A DNA stretch of 64,000 nt from Planctomycetota bacterium (GTDB lineage: Bacteria; Planctomycetota; Planctomycetia; Isosphaerales; Isosphaeraceae), in the NCBI GenBank assembly GCA_021791715.1, contig JAJYWB010000021.1:1-64000 (forward strand), written 5' to 3'. The position numbers were made by a program, and so were the translations under genes. This document shows positions 1 through 42,328 of the stretch, in pieces (position 1 is the first letter of the stretch; each line of letters starts with the position of its first letter). Under the pieces are notes generated by a model. It did not search any database, was not told the DNA's origin, and worked only from the letters and a program-made list of their open reading frames with translations.

Positions 1-18
1 TCGCGCCGAATTGTTACT

Positions 19-137
19 GTTTGGGGGGGCGAACCTCCTGGTGAGCCTCTTATCGAAAACTCCGTCGAAGAGGCCTTTTATTTGTCAATAATCGCAAACA
101 TCATAATTCGGCTCACCCGGAGGTTCGCCCTCCCATT
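19..137. repeat. Inverted-repeat element, copy 1
   Basis: A left arm (28-47) reads GGCGAACCTCCTGGTGAGCC. A right arm (110-129) is its reverse complement with one mismatch. The flanks continue the pairing through a G-rich or C-rich run. The arms are separated by exactly 62 bases, the same distance as in the element that opens the array at 40.15 kb. The two 62-base loops also look related, sharing a GCAAACAT..ATAATT block before the right arm. The right arm read as protein gives a Leu-Thr-Arg-Arg-Phe-Ala-Leu stretch, so upstream in-frame extensions of the next gene are repeat-derived. It could be a hairpin-type (REP- or MITE-like) element; no transposase is nearby. Confidence 0.75.
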
Positions 138-336
138 TTCGGATTCGACGGCTGATCACGCCAAAGATGCGGTTTTCTTTCCAGTAAGAATAATATTAGA
201 GGCCGAGAGCGGGCGCGTCGCTCGTCGTCATTTACGCTTGCGACGTCGCTCGGATCGACGAGAGCCGATTTCGCTCGCGAGGTTGAGACGCTATGCTTTG
301 TGCTCTTCGGTTCCAGGGTGTTTCAGGTTCGATCGC

Positions 337-33202: not shown

Positions 33203-34636
33203 TTAAACAAAACGGAACCCGCCGACGATCGACGTTCGCCTTTGCCGGCAGAACGTCAGCGGGGTCGTCACCCCTTCGCCCGTCGGACCCGCGATCGAGA
33301 ACGAAAGCGATCCCTCGCCCCCCAGGCCGAGCCCCGCGACGCTCGGGCCGTTGACGACGAAGATCGTGCAATCCATCGCCTTCCCCATGCGAGTCATCGT
33401 TCCGGTATCGCGCGAGTGCAAAATCGCGGTATGGCCGTAGCCGTGTTCCGACGACTTGGCGAGTTCGATCGCTCGATCGACGTTCTCGACGCGTACAAAC
33501 GGAATAAACGGCATCATCTGTTCATGATCGACGAACGGATGATCCGCCGAGGTTTCGCCGAAGAGAATCTGCGTACCGTCGGGAACTCGCGCTCCCGCGT
33601 GTTCGCCGAGGATCGCGGGATCTCTGCCGACGAGATCCTTATCGACGACGAGTTTTCCTTTATCGTCTTTTTTGAACGCGGCCCGCGTGAGCGCGGCGAT
33701 CCGTTCCGAGTCGAGGCGGAAGCCGCCGTGACGAGCGACCGCGTCCATCAGTTTGTCGAAGATCAAAGCGACCGCGAACACCTGCTTTTCGCCGATACAT
33801 AGCAGGTTATTATCAAACGCCGCTCCTTCGACGATCGATTTGGCGGCGAGTTCGAGATCGGCGGTCGTATCGACGACGACGGGGGGATTTCCCGGCCCCG
33901 CGACGATCGCCCGGCGGTTGCTCGCGAGCGCCGCCCTGGCGACAGCGGGACCTCCCGTGACGACGAGCAAACGAACGCCTCGATGTTCAAACAACGCGGT
34001 CGCCGATTCGAGCGTCGGAGGATCGATGATCGTAAGCAGGTCGTCGAGCCCGATCGCATCGCAAATCGCCTGATTGAACCGGCGAACCCCCTCCGCGGCG
34101 ACTTTCGCTCCCGAGGGATGCGCGTTGAAGACGACCGTGTTTCCCGCGGCGAGCATGTTGATCGCGTTTCCCGCGAGCGTGGGCAAGCTGTGCGTGACGG
34201 GAGTGATCGCTCCGATCACGCCGAAGGGAGAATAATCGGTGAGAGTCAGCCCCGAGTCTCCCGACGCGTTCTCGGTTCGAAGGTATTCGACTCCCGGAAC
34301 GCGTTCGGCGGCGACTTTGAGTTTGGCGATCTTATGATCAAGCCGGCCGATCTTGGTTTCATCGAGCTCCATCCTGCCGAGTTCCTCGGCCTGATCGAGG
34401 CAGATCGCGCGAATCCGATCGATCGCGGCGCGGCGGTCTTCGAGCGGACGCGTGCGGTACGCCTGAAACGCGCGTTCGGCGGCGGAGACCGCGGAATCGG
34501 CGTCGCGATAAACCCCGTTCGTCCCGCGTCCGCCTCGACAGGGGCGAGCCGACCCCGCGTCGGTCGGCGAAACCTCGCCGATCCGGCTCAGAACCTCTTG
34601 AACGACGCCTCGAATTAGATCCTCGCTCAATTGCAT
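33203..34636 (-). CDS. CoA-acylating aldehyde dehydrogenase (PduP/EutE family), BMC-targeted
   Basis: Oxidises an aldehyde to acyl-CoA with NAD inside the compartment; here the likely substrate is L-lactaldehyde from the aldolase. The 477-residue protein begins with an amphipathic helix LIRGVVQEVLSRIG (residues 7-20), the N-terminal encapsulation peptide seen in PduP. A Gly/Arg-rich linker follows, then the dehydrogenase core: GVIGAITPVTHSLPTLAGN, a VVTGGPAVARAAL NAD-binding turn, and catalytic Cys280 in NNLLCIGEKQ. ATG 34636 is the natural start. It is flanked by BMC-P genes on both sides. The product passes to the PduL phosphotransacylase. Confidence 0.94.
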   Translation of the reverse strand: MQLSEDLIRGVVQEVLSRIGEVSPTDAGSARPCRGGRGTNGVYRDADSAVSAAERAFQAYRTRPLEDRRAAIDRIRAICLDQAEELGRMELDETKIGRLDHKIAKLKVAAERVPGVEYLRTENASGDSGLTLTDYSPFGVIGAITPVTHSLPTLAGNAINMLAAGNTVVFNAHPSGAKVAAEGVRRFNQAICDAIGLDDLLTIIDPPTLESATALFEHRGVRLLVVTGGPAVARAALASNRRAIVAGPGNPPVVVDTTADLELAAKSIVEGAAFDNNLLCIGEKQVFAVALIFDKLMDAVARHGGFRLDSERIAALTRAAFKKDDKGKLVVDKDLVGRDPAILGEHAGARVPDGTQILFGETSADHPFVDHEQMMPFIPFVRVENVDRAIELAKSSEHGYGHTAILHSRDTGTMTRMGKAMDCTIFVVNGPSVAGLGLGGEGSLSFSIAGPTGEGVTTPLTFCRQRRTSIVGGFRFV

Positions 34637-34704
34637 GATCGATTCTTCTCCCGTTTAACCGCGTCGATCGGAACGACGCCGCGAAGTCTCATGTGTGTAT
34701 TCGA

Positions 34705-35022
34705 TCAGTGATTCGTCTGTTTGGAATAAATCGTTCGGCCCTCGATATCGACCGTGTCGACGAGGCCGATGATCACGGCGTCGACGGGAAGTTTCTCGGT
34801 CTCGGGGGTGAGCCTGGCGCTCGATCCCTGACAGATCAAAACATAATCGCCGAGCCCCGCTCCCAACGCGTCGACGACGATGAACGTTCGTCCCGTCGGC
34901 GAAAGTCGATCCCTCGTCTTCTCGTCGACGCGATACGGCTCGACCGCGAGGAGCTTGCGTCCCGTCATCGACGCGACCTTCTGGGTGGCGACGACGACGC
35001 CTGTCACTTTGGCGACGAACAT
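34705..35022 (-). CDS. BMC-P pentameric shell vertex protein, long form
   Basis: A 105-residue EutN/CcmL-family shell protein: MFVAKVTGVVVATQKVASMTG at the start, VVDALGAGLGDYVLICQGSSAR in the centre and PVDAVIIGLVDTVDI near the end, all standard. It has the fuller C-terminal strand and a short polar tail. It begins 3 bases after the acetate kinase stop codon, so it is surely in the same transcript. Together with the two other BMC-P proteins it would close the twelve vertices of the shell. Confidence 0.94.
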   Translation of the reverse strand: MFVAKVTGVVVATQKVASMTGRKLLAVEPYRVDEKTRDRLSPTGRTFIVVDALGAGLGDYVLICQGSSARLTPETEKLPVDAVIIGLVDTVDIEGRTIYSKQTNH

Positions 35023-35025
35023 CGA

Positions 35026-36222
35026 TCAGCCTCCCGAGGCCAGCAGGTCGCGCGCCCGGCGAGCGACGACGATTTCCTCGTTCGTGGGTATTGTCCAAAT
35101 TTGAACACGTGATTGATCGCTTGAGACGATGGATTCGTCTTTGGCGGCGGCGTTCCGCGCCGGGTCGAGCTCGATTCCGAACCACGAAAGGTCGCGGCAA
35201 ACCCCCTCGCGAATCCATTGCGAGTTTTCGCCGATTCCCCCGGTGAAGACGATCGCGTCGGCGCCGCCGAGTTCGACCAGATACGCGCCGAGATAATGAC
35301 GTATCGACGCGATATACACGTTGATCGCCAGTTCGGCGCGTTCGTCCCCCCGGCGCGCCGCGGCTTCGATGTCGCGAAGGTCGCGGCTCGTCCCGCTCAA
35401 TCCTTCAAGGCCCGATCGATTCGCGAGCGTATCGAGGATTTTCTCGAGCGTAAGCCCCGTCTCTCTGATCAAGAGAGGCAAGGCGAAAACGTCGAAATCC
35501 CCCACGCGGTTGTTCTGCGGCAGCCCCGATTGCGGGCTCATCCCCAAACTGCACGCGACCGACGCTCCATTTTTGATCGCGCACAGCGACGAGCTTCCTC
35601 CCAGATGACATGAAATGATTTTCAAGTCGTTTCGCTTAAGGATTTCGCTCGTTCGACCCGCGATGTAACGATGGCTCGCGCCGTGGAACCCCCAGCGAAC
35701 GACGCCGAATCGCGTCGCCCATTCGTCGGGGATCGCGTAGCGTTTATTGGCGGGAGGGATCGTTTCGTGAAAGCCCGTTTCAAACGACGCGACGAGGGGA
35801 AGGTTGGGGAATCGTTTGGCGAGCGAACGCATCGCTCGGATGTAAGGAGGATTGTGCGCCGGCGCGACCTCGGCGAACGAGTCCATAACATCCAATAACT
35901 TAGATGTAATGCGATGAGCGCCCGTGATATTACCCGCGTGGACCGCCTTGAAGCCGATCGCCGCGATCTCGGCCTCGCTTTCGATCACTCCGAGCTTGGG
36001 GTCGGTCAATTGTTCGAGGCAGATGCTCACCGCGACCGCGTGATCGGGTATCGGCTCGACGAGGTCGATCCGGCGTTGCGGCGACCAGATCGTCACCTTG
36101 GCGTCGTCGGACCCGATCCGTTCGACCGAGCCCCGCGCGAGGAGCGGTTCGGCGGGGTCTCCCAGGTCGTACAGCCGATACTTGAAGCTCGTGCTGCCGA
36201 GGTTGGCGACGAGGATTTTCAA
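35026..36222 (-). CDS. Acetate/propionate kinase-family enzyme with altered active-site residues
   Basis: A 398-residue acetate kinase homologue that would convert the acyl-phosphate from PduL to acid plus ATP. Recognisable motifs are NLGSTSFKY (residues 7-15), GFHGASHRYIAGR with His180, CHLGGSSSLCAI, and FTGGIGENSQWIREG. Compared from memory with the Methanosarcina thermophila enzyme, the substrate-binding Arg91 is Lys92 (GFKAVHAG instead of GHRVVHGG). Catalytic Asp148 is Glu148 (SFETGFH instead of FDTAFH). The DTSMG..TPLEG loop is rewritten (CSLGMSPQSGLPQNN), though Arg239 is kept. The changes suggest a different acyl group, for example lactyl, rather than loss of function. It lies between shell genes in the BMC operon. 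Confidence 0.88.
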   Translation of the reverse strand: MKILVANLGSTSFKYRLYDLGDPAEPLLARGSVERIGSDDAKVTIWSPQRRIDLVEPIPDHAVAVSICLEQLTDPKLGVIESEAEIAAIGFKAVHAGNITGAHRITSKLLDVMDSFAEVAPAHNPPYIRAMRSLAKRFPNLPLVASFETGFHETIPPANKRYAIPDEWATRFGVVRWGFHGASHRYIAGRTSEILKRNDLKIISCHLGGSSSLCAIKNGASVACSLGMSPQSGLPQNNRVGDFDVFALPLLIRETGLTLEKILDTLANRSGLEGLSGTSRDLRDIEAAARRGDERAELAINVYIASIRHYLGAYLVELGGADAIVFTGGIGENSQWIREGVCRDLSWFGIELDPARNAAAKDESIVSSDQSRVQIWTIPTNEEIVVARRARDLLASGG

Positions 36223-36247
36223 GGTTTCATCTCCCGGAACGAAAACG

Positions 36248-36529
36248 TCAGCCGCCGATAAATGTTTGAACGACGACGTGTTGAGGTCTGGGGATCACGT
36301 GCGCCGCGATCAATTGCCCGGCCCTCGCCGCGGCGTCCGCTCCCGCCTCGACCGCGGCGCGAACGCTCGAAACGTCGCCTTGAACCATCACGCTCACAAG
36401 CCCGCCGTCGAGCTTGATCACCGAGCTCGCGAGCGTCACGTTCGCCGCCTTGAGCATCGCGTCGATTCCCTGGATCAGGCCGACGAGCCCCATCGTCTCG
36501 ATCATGCCGATCGCCGAGCCGTTGTTCAC
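36248..36529 (-). CDS. BMC-H hexameric shell protein, third copy
   Basis: A 93-residue single-domain BMC shell protein: [41 protein letters not shown] and HVIPRP are classical. The pore loop reads VIKLDGG instead of the usual KVGSG, so its hexamer channel would carry different chemistry. I start at GTG 36529, 9 bases after GAAAGG. Upstream codons to 36610 give a non-BMC N-terminus, and GTG 36535 would leave no room for a ribosome-binding site. It is very similar to the next BMC-H (36.6 kb), so the two likely arose by tandem duplication. Confidence 0.9.
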   Translation of the reverse strand: MNNGSAIGMIETMGLVGLIQGIDAMLKAANVTLASSVIKLDGGLVSVMVQGDVSSVRAAVEAGADAAARAGQLIAAHVIPRPQHVVVQTFIGG

Positions 36530-36637
36530 GGTCGTCACCCTTTCAAAATCATGAGATGCGAATATGCAATTTCGCCTCGCCGAAGCGAAGTCGAGATCGC
36601 GCCGGATCAACCGTTTATTAAACGCGCTTTCGCGCGA

Positions 36638-36961
36638 TCATTTCACATACGTATCGAGAATCGTCCGATCGGGACGGGGAATCACGTGCGCCCCGACGAG
36701 TTCGCCCACTTTCGACGCGGCGTCGGCGCCGGCTTCGACCGCGGCGCGAACGCTGCCGACGTCCCCTTTGACGAGCGTCGTCACGTAACCCGCGCCGATC
36801 CCCACGCGACCCGCGAGCGTCACGTTCGCCGCCTTGAGCATCGCGTCGGTCGCCTCGATCAAACCGACGAGCCCCTTCGTCTCGATCAACCCCAGGGCGT
36901 CGCCGTTCGCTCCGTTAACGTTCGCAGTCATTTTTGTACCTTTTTGTTGTGCGGTCGCCAT
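36638..36961 (-). CDS. BMC-H hexameric shell protein, second copy
   Basis: A single BMC domain, 107 residues from ATG 36961: [40 protein letters not shown] and AHVIPRPDR. The pore loop is VGIGAG. Two starts are plausible. ATG 36961 has GGAG 9 bases upstream, within the end of the previous gene. ATG 36931 has AAGG about 7 bases upstream and would remove a polar 10-residue extension. It starts 4 bases after the first BMC-H gene stops. Closely related to the third copy. Confidence 0.92.
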
Positions 36962-36965
36962 GACT

Positions 36966-37295
36966 TCACGCTCCGTCGTTTCGAGTCGCCGCGGGAGCGG
37001 CCGCGGGCTTCTTGGCGAACGGCAACACGCCGCCCAGATCCTCGTGAGGTCGCGGAATCACTTGAACGCTAATCACTTCGCCGATGCGACCCGCCGCCGC
37101 GGCGCCCGCGTCGACCGCGGCCTTCACCGCCGCCACGTCTCCCGCGACGAACGCCGTCACGAGCCCGCTCCCCACTTTATCCCAGCCGACCAACTCGACG
37201 TTGGCGGCCTTCACCATCGCGTCGCTCGCCTCGACGAGCGCGATAAATCCCTTGCACTCGATCATGCCGAGCGCTTCCAGGGACGCGTTTGCCAT
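36966..37295 (-). CDS. BMC-H hexameric shell protein, first copy
   Basis: A 109-residue canonical BMC-H protein: [24 protein letters not shown], pore loop WDKVGSGLV (Lys40, GSG 42-44), [20 protein letters not shown] and [12 protein letters not shown]. It ends in an Ala/Pro-rich tail ([13 protein letters not shown]) of about 15 residues. It is the closest of the three to typical planctomycete and PduA-like facets and probably builds most of the shell surface. ATG 37295 is close to the domain start. Confidence 0.95.
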
Positions 37296-37369
37296 CTGTC
37301 GACTCCTAATCCAATCAAGAAAACGGAAGAATCAATCAACGCACTAACAACAAAAAGAACTTCGATCGA

Positions 37370-38062
37370 TTAGCCGCGCGGCCTCACGAGTTCGACTTTC
37401 GTCGCATGAGCGAGGTCGCAGCAGTTCGCCTCGTCGGTGTCGATGTGAACCTCGAGCTTCCAATCGTCGTGCGTCCGCACGAGCAACCCCTCGAGAACCG
37501 TCGGACACGATCCCTCGACCCTGAGATCGAGCCGATCCTTGTGCTTCACTCCGTAATAACTCGCATCTTTCGGACCCATATGAACATGGCGTTCGGCGCG
37601 GATCACCCCGCGGGGCAAAACCAAACTCCCCTTCGGGCCGATCAACAGACATCCGGGAGTTCCCTCGATCTCTCCCGAAAGCCGTACGGGAACTTCGATT
37701 CCCAGGCTGATCGCATCGGTGAACGCGAGTTCGACCTGGCTGAATTTTCGGCAAGGACCGAGAATCCGAACGCCCGGTATCATCCGCTGCCTCGGCCCGA
37801 CGACCGCGACCGTTTCGTTCGCGGCGAAATCGGTCGATTGATACAGCGTACGCATCGGAGTCAACTGATATCCAGGACCAAAAAGAACGTCGACATCGGC
37901 TTGCGTTAAATGACAATGCCGCGCCGAGATGTTGACGACAAGGTTGGGTCGATACGAAGGCTCGACTCGCGGAGCGGCGCGGCCGTTCAATCCTCCAAGT
38001 CGATCGATCAAAATCGACCGGACGATCCCCTCCACCTGATCGCGTGCGATCGCGGTCGTCAT
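37370..38062 (-). CDS. PduL-type phosphotransacylase
   Basis: Moves the acyl group from CoA to phosphate, regenerating CoA inside the compartment. The 230-residue protein has the two beta-barrel halves of PduL with zinc-binding His motifs NISARHCHLT (His49, His51) and AERHVHMGP (near 160), and the VLGPCRKFSQVELA-like central block. The N-terminal helix QVEGIVRSILIDRLGG (residues 9-24) fits an encapsulation peptide. It starts inside the DeoR gene's stop (4-base overlap, ATGA), so the regulator and enzyme are coupled. Confidence 0.94.
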   Translation of the reverse strand: MTTAIARDQVEGIVRSILIDRLGGLNGRAAPRVEPSYRPNLVVNISARHCHLTQADVDVLFGPGYQLTPMRTLYQSTDFAANETVAVVGPRQRMIPGVRILGPCRKFSQVELAFTDAISLGIEVPVRLSGEIEGTPGCLLIGPKGSLVLPRGVIRAERHVHMGPKDASYYGVKHKDRLDLRVEGSCPTVLEGLLVRTHDDWKLEVHIDTDEANCCDLAHATKVELVRPRG

Positions 38063-38886
38063 GCTCGGCTCCTTGTCGCTTCGTCTTTAGATTGTCCGTT
38101 AAGCGAATCGCCGAACGGATCGCGTTCGGGCTCGGCGAACAACACGTTCACATTCTTATCGCGCAACATGCCTCGATGTTCCTCGCTCAATCCGGCGTCG
38201 ACGACGATCGTTCGCACGCTTTCGAGCCCGCACAGCCACGCGAGCGCCGGCCTGCCGAATTTGGTGTGATCGGCGACGACGAACACCTCCTGGGCGCACG
38301 CGGTCATTCGTCGCTGAGTTTCAACCAATAATAAATTGTGGTTATAAATACCGTCCGCGATGATTCCCCCCGCTCCCATGATCGTCTTCCGCACCCGAAC
38401 GTCTTTCAGCCCGTCGATCGCGATCGGGCCGAGCGCCACCCCCGTTTTGGGGTAAACGTAGCCGCCGATCAGAATCAAATCGGTCTCTTTGCTCGCGGCG
38501 ATCAAAGACGCGATCGGCAGGCTGTTGGTGACGATCTGTACGGGTCGGTCGACGAGAGCGCGGGCGACTTCCAGCGTCGTCGTTCCGCCGTCGAGCAAGA
38601 TCGATTCGCCGTCTTCGATCAACGACGCGACGAGCCGACCGATCGCACGCTTCTCCGCCGCCGAAGTCGCGGCGCGATCCTCAAGAGCCGGAAGCGACTT
38701 CATCTCCGCGACGCTCACCGCGCCGCCGTAAACCCGCTTGATCAGCCCCGCGTGATCGAGAGCCTCCAGATCGCGGCGAATCGTGCTTTCAGAAGCGCCC
38801 AACGAGGCCGCGATCCCGGTCAGACTCGCGAAACCATCGCGACCGATCCGTTCCAGCAGCATTCGACGACGCGTCTCTTGATTCAT
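38059..38886 (-). CDS. DeoR-family transcriptional regulator of the BMC operon
   Basis: A 275-residue sugar-responsive repressor type. It has an N-terminal helix-turn-helix (LTGIAASLGASESTIRRDLEALDHAGLIKRVYGGA) and a C-terminal sugar-phosphate-sensing domain (LLDGGTTTLEVARAL, IVTNSLPIASLIA, LIGGYVYPKTGVALG, VVADHTKFGRPA). It is first in the BMC operon, so it probably represses it until a pathway sugar phosphate appears. I chose ATG 38886. The upstream GTG 38919 falls at the predicted transcription start of the promoter at 38927-38955, which leaves a 30-odd-base leader only for the ATG. Confidence 0.9.
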   Translation of the reverse strand: MNQETRRRMLLERIGRDGFASLTGIAASLGASESTIRRDLEALDHAGLIKRVYGGAVSVAEMKSLPALEDRAATSAAEKRAIGRLVASLIEDGESILLDGGTTTLEVARALVDRPVQIVTNSLPIASLIAASKETDLILIGGYVYPKTGVALGPIAIDGLKDVRVRKTIMGAGGIIADGIYNHNLLLVETQRRMTACAQEVFVVADHTKFGRPALAWLCGLESVRTIVVDAGLSEEHRGMLRDKNVNVLFAEPERDPFGDSLNGQSKDEATRSRA

Positions 38887-38926
38887 GACCGATTCGTCTC
38901 GAAGTCTTTCGCACGCCACGAATGCT

Positions 38927-39204: not shown

Positions 39205-40083
39205 GTGCCCGAGCTACCCGAGGTCGAGACGATGGTTCGGGGGCTTCGGCCCGTGATGGAGGGTTTCTCACTCGTTGAACTGAAAATACATGATCCGTCT
39301 TTGATCCGTGGGATCGAACCCGATCGTTTAATCGACCGGGTTGAGGGATCTCGGATCGATCGGATCGAGCGACGAGGCAAGTGGGTTGTTTTTCATCTCG
39401 CACTCGACGCGGGTATTATCGTCGTTCAGCCGCGGATGACGGGAGGATTTTGGCTCATTTTTCCGGCTCGAATCGATCACGCGCGCCTCACGTTTCGGTT
39501 GGGTGAACCCGAGCGGTCGGTTTGGTACTGCGATGCGCGACGATTGGGGCGAATTCATTGGTTTGGATCTCTCGAAGAAGCCTCGCGGGCGTTCAAGAAA
39601 TCGCACGGACCCGATGCGCTCGCGATCGAGCTCGACATCCTTATCGCCAAGCTCAAAGCGACGAATCGAGGAATCAAGCCGACATTGATGGATCAAAAAA
39701 TCCTCGCCGGAATCGGCAACATCTACGCCGACGAAATCTTATTCGCGGCCAAGATTCATCCCGAGAGAAAAGCTTCGTCGCTCGCTTCCAAAGAAATCAA
39801 GCAAATACATGATTCGATCAGTTTGGTGTTGGCGAAGGCGATCGCCGCTGAGGGTTCGAGCTTCGACGCGGGATATCGAACCGTCCTCGGCCTTGAAGGG
39901 GGTTTTTTGGCGATGAACGCGGTTTATGGACGCGAGGGCGCCCCCTGCCCCGATTGCGGCTCGGCGATCGTCAAAGGGAAAATTCAGGGCCTGATCGGCA
40001 GACCGACGTATCATTGCCCAGGCTGCCAGATACTCGGTCGTCGTCGGAAAAAACGATCGACGAAAAACGATCCCGAACGGTGA
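39205..40083 (+). CDS. mutM: Formamidopyrimidine-DNA glycosylase
   Basis: Base-excision repair enzyme that removes 8-oxoguanine and formamidopyrimidines and nicks the strand. The 292-residue protein begins PELPEVETMVRGL, with the catalytic Pro1 and Glu2 after Met removal. It contains the GRKWV-like RGKWVVFHL block, the helix-two-turn-helix segment ILAGIGNIYADEILF, and a C-terminal zinc finger (CPDCGSAIVKGK..TYHCPGCQ). The start is GTG 39205; Pro must be residue 2, which fixes it. Divergent from the BMC operon. Confidence 0.96.
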   Translation: MPELPEVETMVRGLRPVMEGFSLVELKIHDPSLIRGIEPDRLIDRVEGSRIDRIERRGKWVVFHLALDAGIIVVQPRMTGGFWLIFPARIDHARLTFRLGEPERSVWYCDARRLGRIHWFGSLEEASRAFKKSHGPDALAIELDILIAKLKATNRGIKPTLMDQKILAGIGNIYADEILFAAKIHPERKASSLASKEIKQIHDSISLVLAKAIAAEGSSFDAGYRTVLGLEGGFLAMNAVYGREGAPCPDCGSAIVKGKIQGLIGRPTYHCPGCQILGRRRKKRSTKNDPER

Positions 40084-40148
40084 TGTCGTTTCGTTTATTG
40101 CGTAAAAGTGTGTGTGTGTGTTGTATCAACATGTGTGATCTATTCTGT

Positions 40149-41042
40149 TTGGGAGGGCGAACCTCCTGGTGAGCCTCGGTTCGTAAACATCGGAAACATT
40201 GTCGTTTTTTCGGGCATAAATTGCAAACATATAATTTGGCACACCAGGAGGTTCGCCTTCCCAAATTCGGCATCGGCCTTCCCAATTGCGGGATAAATCG
40301 GCTCACCAGGAGGTTCGCCCTCCCAAATTCGGCTTCGGCCTTCCCAATTGCGGGATAAGTCGGCTCACCAGGAGGTTCGCCCTCCCAAGTTCGGCATCGA
40401 CCTCCCAAATGCGGCTTCGGCCTTCCCAATTGCGGGATAAATCGGCTCACCAGGAGGTTCGCCCTCCCAAATTCGGCATCGGCCTCCCAAATTGCGGCAT
40501 CGGCCTCCCAAGTTCGGCATCGGCCTTCCCAATTGCGGGATAATTCGGCTCACCAGGAGGTTCGCCCTCCCAAATTCGGCATCGCCGACTCCCAAATTCG
40601 GCATCGGCCTCGCAAATTCTGGATAAATCGGCTCACCAGGAGGTTCGCCCTCCCAAATTGCGGCATCGGCCTCCCAAATTCGGCATCGCCGACTCCCAAA
40701 TTCGGCTTCGGCCTCCCAAATGCGGGATAAGTCGGCTCACCAGGAGGTTCGCCCTCCCAAATTCGGCATCGGCCTCCCAAATTCGGCTTCGGCCTTCCCA
40801 ATTGCGGGATAATTCGGCTCACCAGGAGGTTCGCCCTCCCAAATTCGGCATCGCCCTCCCAAATTCGGCTTCGGCCCTCCCAAATTCGGCATCGGCCTCC
40901 CAAATTCGGCTTCGGCCTTCCCAATTGCGGGATAATTCGGCACACCAGGAGGTTCGTCCTCCCAAATTGCGGCATCGGCCTCCCAAATGCGGCATCGGCC
41001 TTCCAAATGCGGGATAAATCGGCTCACCAGGAGGTTCGCCAT
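40149..41042. repeat. Inverted-repeat element followed by a nested direct-repeat array
   Basis: A reverse arm (40156-40175, GGCGAACCTCCTGGTGAGCC) faces a forward arm (40238-40257) across 62 bases, the same element as at 19-137. From the forward arm an array continues. GGCTCACCAGGAGGTTCGCC recurs at about 40238, 40300, 40362, 40444, 40547, 40630, 40733, 40815, 40939 and 41021. The spacings (62, 62, 82, 103, 83, 103, 82, 124, 82) are near multiples of 20.6, because variable numbers of a 20-21-base sub-unit (GGCATCGGCCTCCCAAATTC and variants) lie between. Each long unit usually ends TTGCGGGATAA. Open frames across it on both strands are low-complexity repeat translations, not genes. Confidence 0.93.
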
Positions 41043-41157
41043 GCCGATTGCCGGTTCGGCGTCAAATCGCGACGATCATACGGATTTCATTCCGAATGAT
41101 ATCTCATTTACCATAATATCATCTTGCTTACCAAGCGTGAGGAGAAAATCGAATCGT

Positions 41158-42189
41158 TCACGCTTTCGTCGCCAGGACCGCGTCGAGCGGGACTCCGCCC
41201 GAGAGCGCTTTGTGCTCGACTCCGGCGAAGCCGACGCTCTTGAGCAGCGATTCATATTCTTGCGCGGTTCGTTCGCGCCCCTCGGTGTATATCAACATCC
41301 CGAGATGTTGCATCAGCGCCCACCGCGGCCCCGATCGATCGGAATCGATCAGCTTTTCGGCGACAAGAACCGAGCCTCCAATCGGCAGACGATCATAAAT
41401 ACGCTTTAAAAGGACAAGGATTTTTTCCTCGGTCCAATCGTGGAGGATGCGACCGAGCGCGAAGACGTCTCCTTCGGGGAGAGGATCGACGAAAAAATCT
41501 CCCGCGCGGATCTCGATCCGCGAGGCCGCGGGCGATCGGCCGACGATCTCGCGGGTCAAAGGAACGACGTCGGCGAGGTCGAAAACCGTCGCGTGCAACC
41601 GCGGATAACGCTCGCACGCCGCGATCGCGAGATGCCCCGTCGCGCCGCCGAGATCGACGAGCCGTTTCCTCGATCCCAGGTCGAACGCCGCGACGACCTC
41701 GGGTGAACTAATCAATCCATATCCGTGCATTCCCATTAAGAATTCACGCTTGGATTCCTCGGTACGAAAGAAATTCGCGAAAATCGGCCCGTCCCAGCCG
41801 AAGGTTTCTTTCCAGCGGTGCGTTCCCTCGCGAATCGCCCCCTCGAGGTTCGCCCACATCTTCCACAGAACGTCGTTCGAATAGCCGATATATCCCGTTA
41901 ATCGTCGCGGACTCGCGCTCGTTAAGTACGTTTGAGCGACCCGAGCGTTCGCGTAACGATCGGCCGATTTTTCGATCAGCTTCAGGCAAACGCACGCGTC
42001 GAGCAGCCTGCCGAGCGAGTCGGCGTGAAGACCCAGTTTTTCGGCGAGCGCTTCGGCGGTCGCGGGCTCTTTGTCAAGCGCGTCGAAAATTCCCAGCGAA
42101 ACCGCGGCGAACATCGTCTTCGATCGACGGTACGATTCGAGCAAATCGAGGACGATCGAGGGATCGGCTACCGAAGGAAGTTCCGACAT
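41158..42189 (-). CDS. SAM-dependent O-methyltransferase, acetylserotonin-OMT type
   Basis: A 343-residue class I methyltransferase with an N-terminal winged-helix dimerisation domain (LLESYRRSKTMFAAVSLGIFDAL..ALAEKLGLHADSLGRLLDAC). The catalytic domain has SAM motif I LVDLGGATGHLAIA, an RIEIRAGDFF motif and the ALGRILHDWTEEK block, where the catalytic His of small-molecule OMTs lies. It likely methylates a hydroxylated secondary metabolite or carotenoid-like compound; substrate unknown. ATG 42189 has AAGAGAG upstream. It follows the repeat array and no biosynthetic cluster is nearby. Confidence 0.88.
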   Translation of the reverse strand: MSELPSVADPSIVLDLLESYRRSKTMFAAVSLGIFDALDKEPATAEALAEKLGLHADSLGRLLDACVCLKLIEKSADRYANARVAQTYLTSASPRRLTGYIGYSNDVLWKMWANLEGAIREGTHRWKETFGWDGPIFANFFRTEESKREFLMGMHGYGLISSPEVVAAFDLGSRKRLVDLGGATGHLAIAACERYPRLHATVFDLADVVPLTREIVGRSPAASRIEIRAGDFFVDPLPEGDVFALGRILHDWTEEKILVLLKRIYDRLPIGGSVLVAEKLIDSDRSGPRWALMQHLGMLIYTEGRERTAQEYESLLKSVGFAGVEHKALSGGVPLDAVLATKA

Positions 42190-42328
42190 AATCAACTCTC
42201 TTAAAAAGATATATAATAAAACAATCTTGGTTGAGGATCGCGATCGAAACGAAAACGAAAGAAGCGTTTATTCGGGAATTCGCTTCTGGCGAGAGCGTCT
42301 TTGGCAAGCTACGAACGGCGTTTCGCGT

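Follow-up and report, generated by a model that had tools for sequence, protein, structure and literature searches.

A nested repeat array between mutM and a methyltransferase gene of a planctomycete is probably an expanded, degenerate IS5-family MITE

A dense array of short repeats occupies the gap between two convergent genes, mutM and a methyltransferase gene, of a Planctomycetota bacterium, and it raises the question of what kind of element it is and how it grew. The window that we analyzed is a stretch of 64,000 nucleotides that contains this array. Ten forward arms, CACCAGGAGGTTCG(C/T)C, have their CACC starts at 40242, 40304, 40366, 40448, 40551, 40634, 40738, 40820, 40943, and 41025, giving successive spacings of 62, 62, 82, 103, 83, 104, 82, 123, and 82 bp. 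The original prediction, made from the window alone, was that the arms recur at multiples of about 20.6 bases. Period analysis bore this out, since the best-fit period of the nine spacings is 20.6 bp, with no spacing more than 1.0 bp off a multiple, and 0 of 200,000 random spacing sets fitted as well. Arms with up to 2 mismatches numbered 13 in the window, against 0.03 expected from shuffling. The filler between the arms consists of copies of a 20- to 21-bp module, as had been proposed; Tandem Repeats Finder likewise returned nested periods of 62, 82, 103, and 123 bp together with a 20-bp unit. The first forward arm pairs with a reverse arm at 40151, and the other nine forward arms have no reverse partner, which agrees with the claim of a single reverse arm at the first element; a second inverted arm pair of the window, at 28-129, is separate from the array.

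Open frames run through the array on both strands, for example, 141 aa on the minus strand (40550-40975) and 119 aa on the plus strand (40658-41017). They had been described as pseudo-proteins; the frames do exist, but they show no sign of being genes, and the array is noncoding. Regular repeats with fillers and frames of this kind could also be read as a CRISPR-like array or a repeat-protein gene. We give this reading practically no chance, as the fillers are copies of one module and not unique spacers, which refutes a CRISPR array, and a repeat-protein gene is contradicted by the mixed 20- and 21-bp units, which break any frame, and by the frames being open on both strands. Scanning the window for Rfam families and tRNAs returned no matches.

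Rather than a local oddity, the array is a decayed member of a MITE family that is spread over the genome. Arms with up to 3 mismatches occur 1,175 times in this draft genome (6.5 Mb, 145 contigs, 92% complete, with copy numbers inside arrays that may be wrong), against 0 for a reversed-pattern control. The same-genus genome has 31 arms, most members of the taxonomic family have 0 to 16, and one member has 83 of a variant. Searched as an exact pattern, inverted-arm cores number at least 191 in this genome, 4 in the genus mate, and 0 in four other family members. We studied in detail about 1.28 to 1.46 Mb of the genome, a repeat-biased sample picked mostly around repeats. Neighboring inverted pairs in 1.28 Mb of it were spaced 90 to 93 bp in 114 of 123 cases, and other arm spacings varied widely. 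Because the closest full-length relatives of one examined copy are only 82 to 84% identical to it, the family looks old.

Several contigs end in such arrays (e.g., C99, C31, C28, C126, and C21), and in a draft genome, collapsed or misjoined repeats could in principle have made the array. We judge such an assembly artifact extremely unlikely, since the window array is internal to a 78-kb contig and is built of mutually different units and since similar arrays, with periods of their own, occur at dozens of unrelated loci.

The ends of the family consensus were found by lining up isolated copies, in which conservation continues past the arms. The basal unit measures ~285 bp (consensus, 286 bp; range, 265 to 306 bp), has no transposase inside, and consists, in order, of the TIR GAGGCTATCCGGAAAG, a leader, the left arm GGGAGGGCGAACCTCCTGGTGAGCC, a 63-bp core, the right arm GGCTCACCGGGAGGTTCGCCCTCCC, a tail, and the end CTTTTCCGGATAGCCTC. 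Exact 3-bp duplications were present at 12 of 44 end pairs, a set that includes a few nested or duplicate ones, compared to a null mean of 2.7 and to never more than 10 in 10,000 shuffles; 4-bp duplications were found at 0 of the 44. The duplicated triplets were TTA, TAA, TGA, TCA, TTG, and TCG, and TNA was the flanking triplet at 71 of at most 132 ends, with an intergenic background of 5.6%. The IS1031 subgroup of the IS5 family prefers TNA targets and duplicates 3 bp (PMC12016507). The family thus has the features of an IS5/IS1031-type MITE, namely, TIRs matching those of an IS, a 3-bp TNA duplication, short length, and the absence of a transposase gene.

The 286-bp profile of the family matched the window array on the minus strand at 40279-40123 (model positions 42 to 198; E value of 1e-30) and at 41097-41013 (model positions 7 to 91; E value of 3e-16). 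The array had been placed at 40238-41042; this holds for the array itself, and the recognizable element reaches further, from ~40123 to ~41105 (Table 1). The left TIR of the window copy is degenerate (41088-41105, reading CATTCCGAATGATATCTC on the plus strand). Its right end is missing before mutM, with no recognizable right TIR and hence no readable TSD, so that a complete TIR pair with a TSD is absent from this copy. This loss counts against assigning the array to a MITE. A short GT microsatellite occupies positions 40110-40122, where the right end is lost.

Table 1. Positions of the MITE copies, their parts, and the neighboring genes in the window, and of short elements in another genome
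Feature	Position	Strand	Basis
Decayed, expanded MITE copy, whole recognizable element	40123..41105	- (canonical orientation)	MITE profile matches
Canonical right arm, sole reverse arm of the array	40151..40175	-	Exact arm
Inter-arm core (inverted arms 91 bp apart, as elsewhere in the family)	40176..40237	-	Aligns to consensus
Canonical left arm, first forward arm and growth origin of the array	40238..40262	+	Arm match, arm-type data
Nested array, eight further arms and 20- to 21-bp modules	40263..41020	+	Period, filler, and identity data
Tenth and last forward arm, truncated	41021..41040	+	Arm match
Canonical left leader and degenerate left TIR	41041..41105	-	nhmmer and pairwise alignment to consensus
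Second MITE copy, plain, one inverted pair, no array, cut by window start	12..184	-	nhmmer (E value of 1.9e-47); arms at 28 and 114
mutM/fpg, convergent on the element	39205..40083	+	TIGR00577, 229.5 bits
Methyltransferase gene, convergent on the element	41158..42195	-	NCBIfam methyltransferase matches, below curated cutoffs
Short elements with the same ends in genome G024	L203:1350-1515, L205:240-405, L208:1501-1567, L211:1501-1599		

The same-genus genome gave no mutM match and offered no orthologous site for comparison, and in genome G037, the mutM and methyltransferase matches lie on different contigs. Upstream of mutM, at 33203-38919, we noted ORFs that by eye resemble a bacterial microcompartment locus, with small shell-type proteins, acetate kinase-like and aldehyde dehydrogenase-like enzymes, and a DeoR-type regulator.

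A possible source of the transposase was found in a relative. Genome G039, of the same taxonomic family, carries an intact IS of ~938 bp with the same end sequence and a TGA duplication; this IS, in record L193, begins with GAGGCTATCCGGAAAG and ends with TTCCCGGATAGCCTC, and its 283-aa transposase matches DUF4096, DDE_Tnp_1, and NF033580 (190 bits; IS5). With the IS1031 subgroup of IS5, the MITE has in common the 3-bp TNA duplication and the TIR GAGGCTATCCGGAAA, which is present in this IS5-family element of the relative; it differs in being ~285 bp long, in having no transposase gene, and in its arms and modules, which are absent from the relative's IS. The genome under study yielded no transposase locus with these TIRs; it has 7 PF01609 loci and 4 PF13340 loci, none so flanked, and the transposase loci found are few and partly broken. 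The lack of a partner in the genome also counts against assignment to a MITE, and for old MITE families a partner transposase in the same genome is no strict requirement. Genome G024, from another genus, has very short elements of 67 to 166 bp whose ends are the same and some of which are flanked by 3-bp TNA duplications; we regard them as independent MITEs belonging to this IS type.

Inverted pairs of short, GC-rich hairpins that are extragenic and present in hundreds of copies are also the mark of REP/REPIN (BIME) elements, which a RAYT transposase spreads. That the family belongs here seems very unlikely to us. Y1_Tnp (PF01797) was not detected in the genome in a search whose control run was positive in 5 of 14 genomes, the arms have no GTAG or CGTC tag when compared with the families of PMC3733652, and long TIRs with 3-bp TSDs are present, unlike in REPs.

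We therefore consider it highly probable that the window array is a degenerate nonautonomous IS5-family (IS1031-type) MITE copy whose inner repeats were multiplied in place. The leader of the basal unit holds an 11-bp motif, GAGGGCGAACC, which appears again 20 bp later, within the left arm. Slippage on this built-in repeat predicts a ladder of leader lengths with 20-bp steps, and such a ladder was observed: at 93 left ends, the lengths from the end to the first arm peak at 38, 58, 78, 98, 114 to 118, and 138 bp and on, in steps of ~20 bp, so that the copy number of the inner direct repeat differs among genomic copies.

Arrays are also locally homogeneous. The identity of the spacers between arms averages 0.73 within arrays versus 0.44 between arrays, and each unit of the window array has a partner within the array at 0.76 to 0.95 identity and reaches at most 0.79 with any sampled unit elsewhere. 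Array periods differ by locus, even between the two sides of one core. We rejected helical-turn spacing (the module measures about two turns) as a functional clue, as the ladder has 20-bp steps throughout the genome and the periods of other arrays (41, 58, 76, 99, and 120 bp) are unrelated. Among extra arms on the left side, 38 of 42 carry the left-arm base, and 5 of 8 on the right side are of the right type. The ladder, the local homogeneity, and the arm types support growth outward from one arm in two tiers, by whole units and by the small module, as the best account of the array and as the original prediction had it.

We infer that polymerase slippage and unequal recombination were the copying steps and that events took the following order. 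A transposase acting in trans, of the kind encoded by the relative's IS, would have spread the MITE by targeting TNA and duplicating 3 bp, and one copy would have inserted between mutM and the convergent methyltransferase gene. Replication slippage on the built-in direct repeat would then have added 20- to 21-bp modules, and longer slippage or unequal recombination on existing arm copies would have duplicated arm-plus-module units until one side had ten arms. Afterwards, the element would have lost its right end and decayed.

Other forms of expansion were noted in the same genome. At L173:1-790, complete MITEs follow one another head to tail, separated by copies of the TTA target, which makes tandem whole-element arrays a third type of expansion. 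Tandem arrays of the TTTCGGCGATCTCAGAATACTTGGGTGTCTGGGTTTAC type adjoin the same MITE end at L093:3300-3741 and L172:7720-8100, which suggests that the genome also has a related element built on another inner repeat. A further dispersed sequence, GTTCGCTCAAAAGATGCGC..GAAGATAC.GACGAAGACTC, recurs near MITE insertions in L093, L094, and L054.

The elements avoid genes and promoters and mostly sit just after genes. With gene calls from a rough, home-made ORF scorer, 0 of 117 element clusters lay inside genes, and among the 64 clusters with both neighbors, 33 occupied convergent gaps, compared to 79 of 520 other gaps (Fisher P value of 4e-10), and 3 occupied divergent gaps, compared to 111 of 520. 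Seven element ends lie directly against a stop codon (TGA or TAA), with a spike at distance zero and none at 1 to 4 bp. Insertion at a stop codon would be harmless, because the TNA duplication would restore the stop, which suggests that stop codon rebuilding is one reason for the placement after genes; our literature search, with the terms tried, found no publication on insertion at stop codons. Selection that purges insertions elsewhere explains the placement without any function, but a role at transcript ends is conceivable.

Such a role leads to a different reason for the persistence of the arms, namely, that they are a selected functional palindrome (for example, a transcript end or stabilizer or, in PVC bacteria, a site bound by a protein), with the MITE as a vehicle and the arrays as dosage variants downstream of genes. 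This reading, which can be combined with that of a MITE, is in our view possible but rather doubtful. The arms are far better conserved than their surroundings: among elements detected solely through their tails, tail identity is 0.76, and 43 of 66 right arms have 0 to 1 mismatch in 25, and in isolated copies, pairwise identity is 0.93 to 0.94 for arms and 0.71 for cores. Arms at 0.94 beside tails at 0.76 are not predicted by plain decay and, to that extent, weigh against the MITE account. Left and right arms also keep a fixed T/G difference (in 97 of 115 and 87 of 115 cases), a distinction that would be lost if the arms converted each other freely. The folded element is highly stable (z score of -10.2), and selection for function would fit the enrichment of convergent gaps and the avoidance of divergent ones. 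However, elements would also end up after genes if insertion at other sites were just harmful, no T-tracts follow the arms, which are thus not classical intrinsic terminators, and copy numbers are hugely unequal in two genomes of one genus.

The exact 25-mer arm further occurs in Verrucomicrobia, Phycisphaerae, Chthonomonadia, and other records (L221-L246), frequently as inverted pairs and in most cases lacking these TIRs, which again favors a functional palindrome; the arm sequence appeared in none of the literature searched. The constancy of the arms may reflect selection, conversion, or the capture of an older palindrome. We advance only tentatively, as a scenario that is itself unlikely, that the arm is a PVC-group palindrome, conserved for function or independently homogenized, which an IS5-type MITE captured and multiplied, so that arrays downstream of genes would change the dose of this site.

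Returning to the MITE with inner repeats multiplied in place, the closest precedent in kind, compared by description, is BrickBuilt of Porphyromonas gingivalis, a minisatellite-bearing MITE with 19 copies, a 23-nt unit, and a single tier (PMC4596501). Both are MITEs with a TIR-bearing leader and a tail, variable direct repeats of ~20 nt inside, exclusively intergenic positions, and no inner transposase. The present family differs in its scale (at least 191 cores), in its two tiers, with a 20- to 21-nt module nested in units that carry a 25-bp hairpin arm, and in the rigid core, whose inverted arms stand at an almost constant distance. In eukaryotes, MITE-derived satellites arise by tandem amplification of inner MITE repeats in place; here, the genome is bacterial, and the arrays are short.

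In draft assemblies of such genomes, these arrays are places where contigs break, and open frames within the arrays should not be taken for genes. Altogether, a bacterial transposon has seeded minisatellites at dozens of sites, and plain 285-bp copies and kilobase arrays occur in one genome, so the path of growth can be read directly. The constant arms, common to distant PVC bacteria, pose the question of selection versus gene conversion; if the arm is a captured functional palindrome, the arms would stay constant while the surrounding transposon decays.
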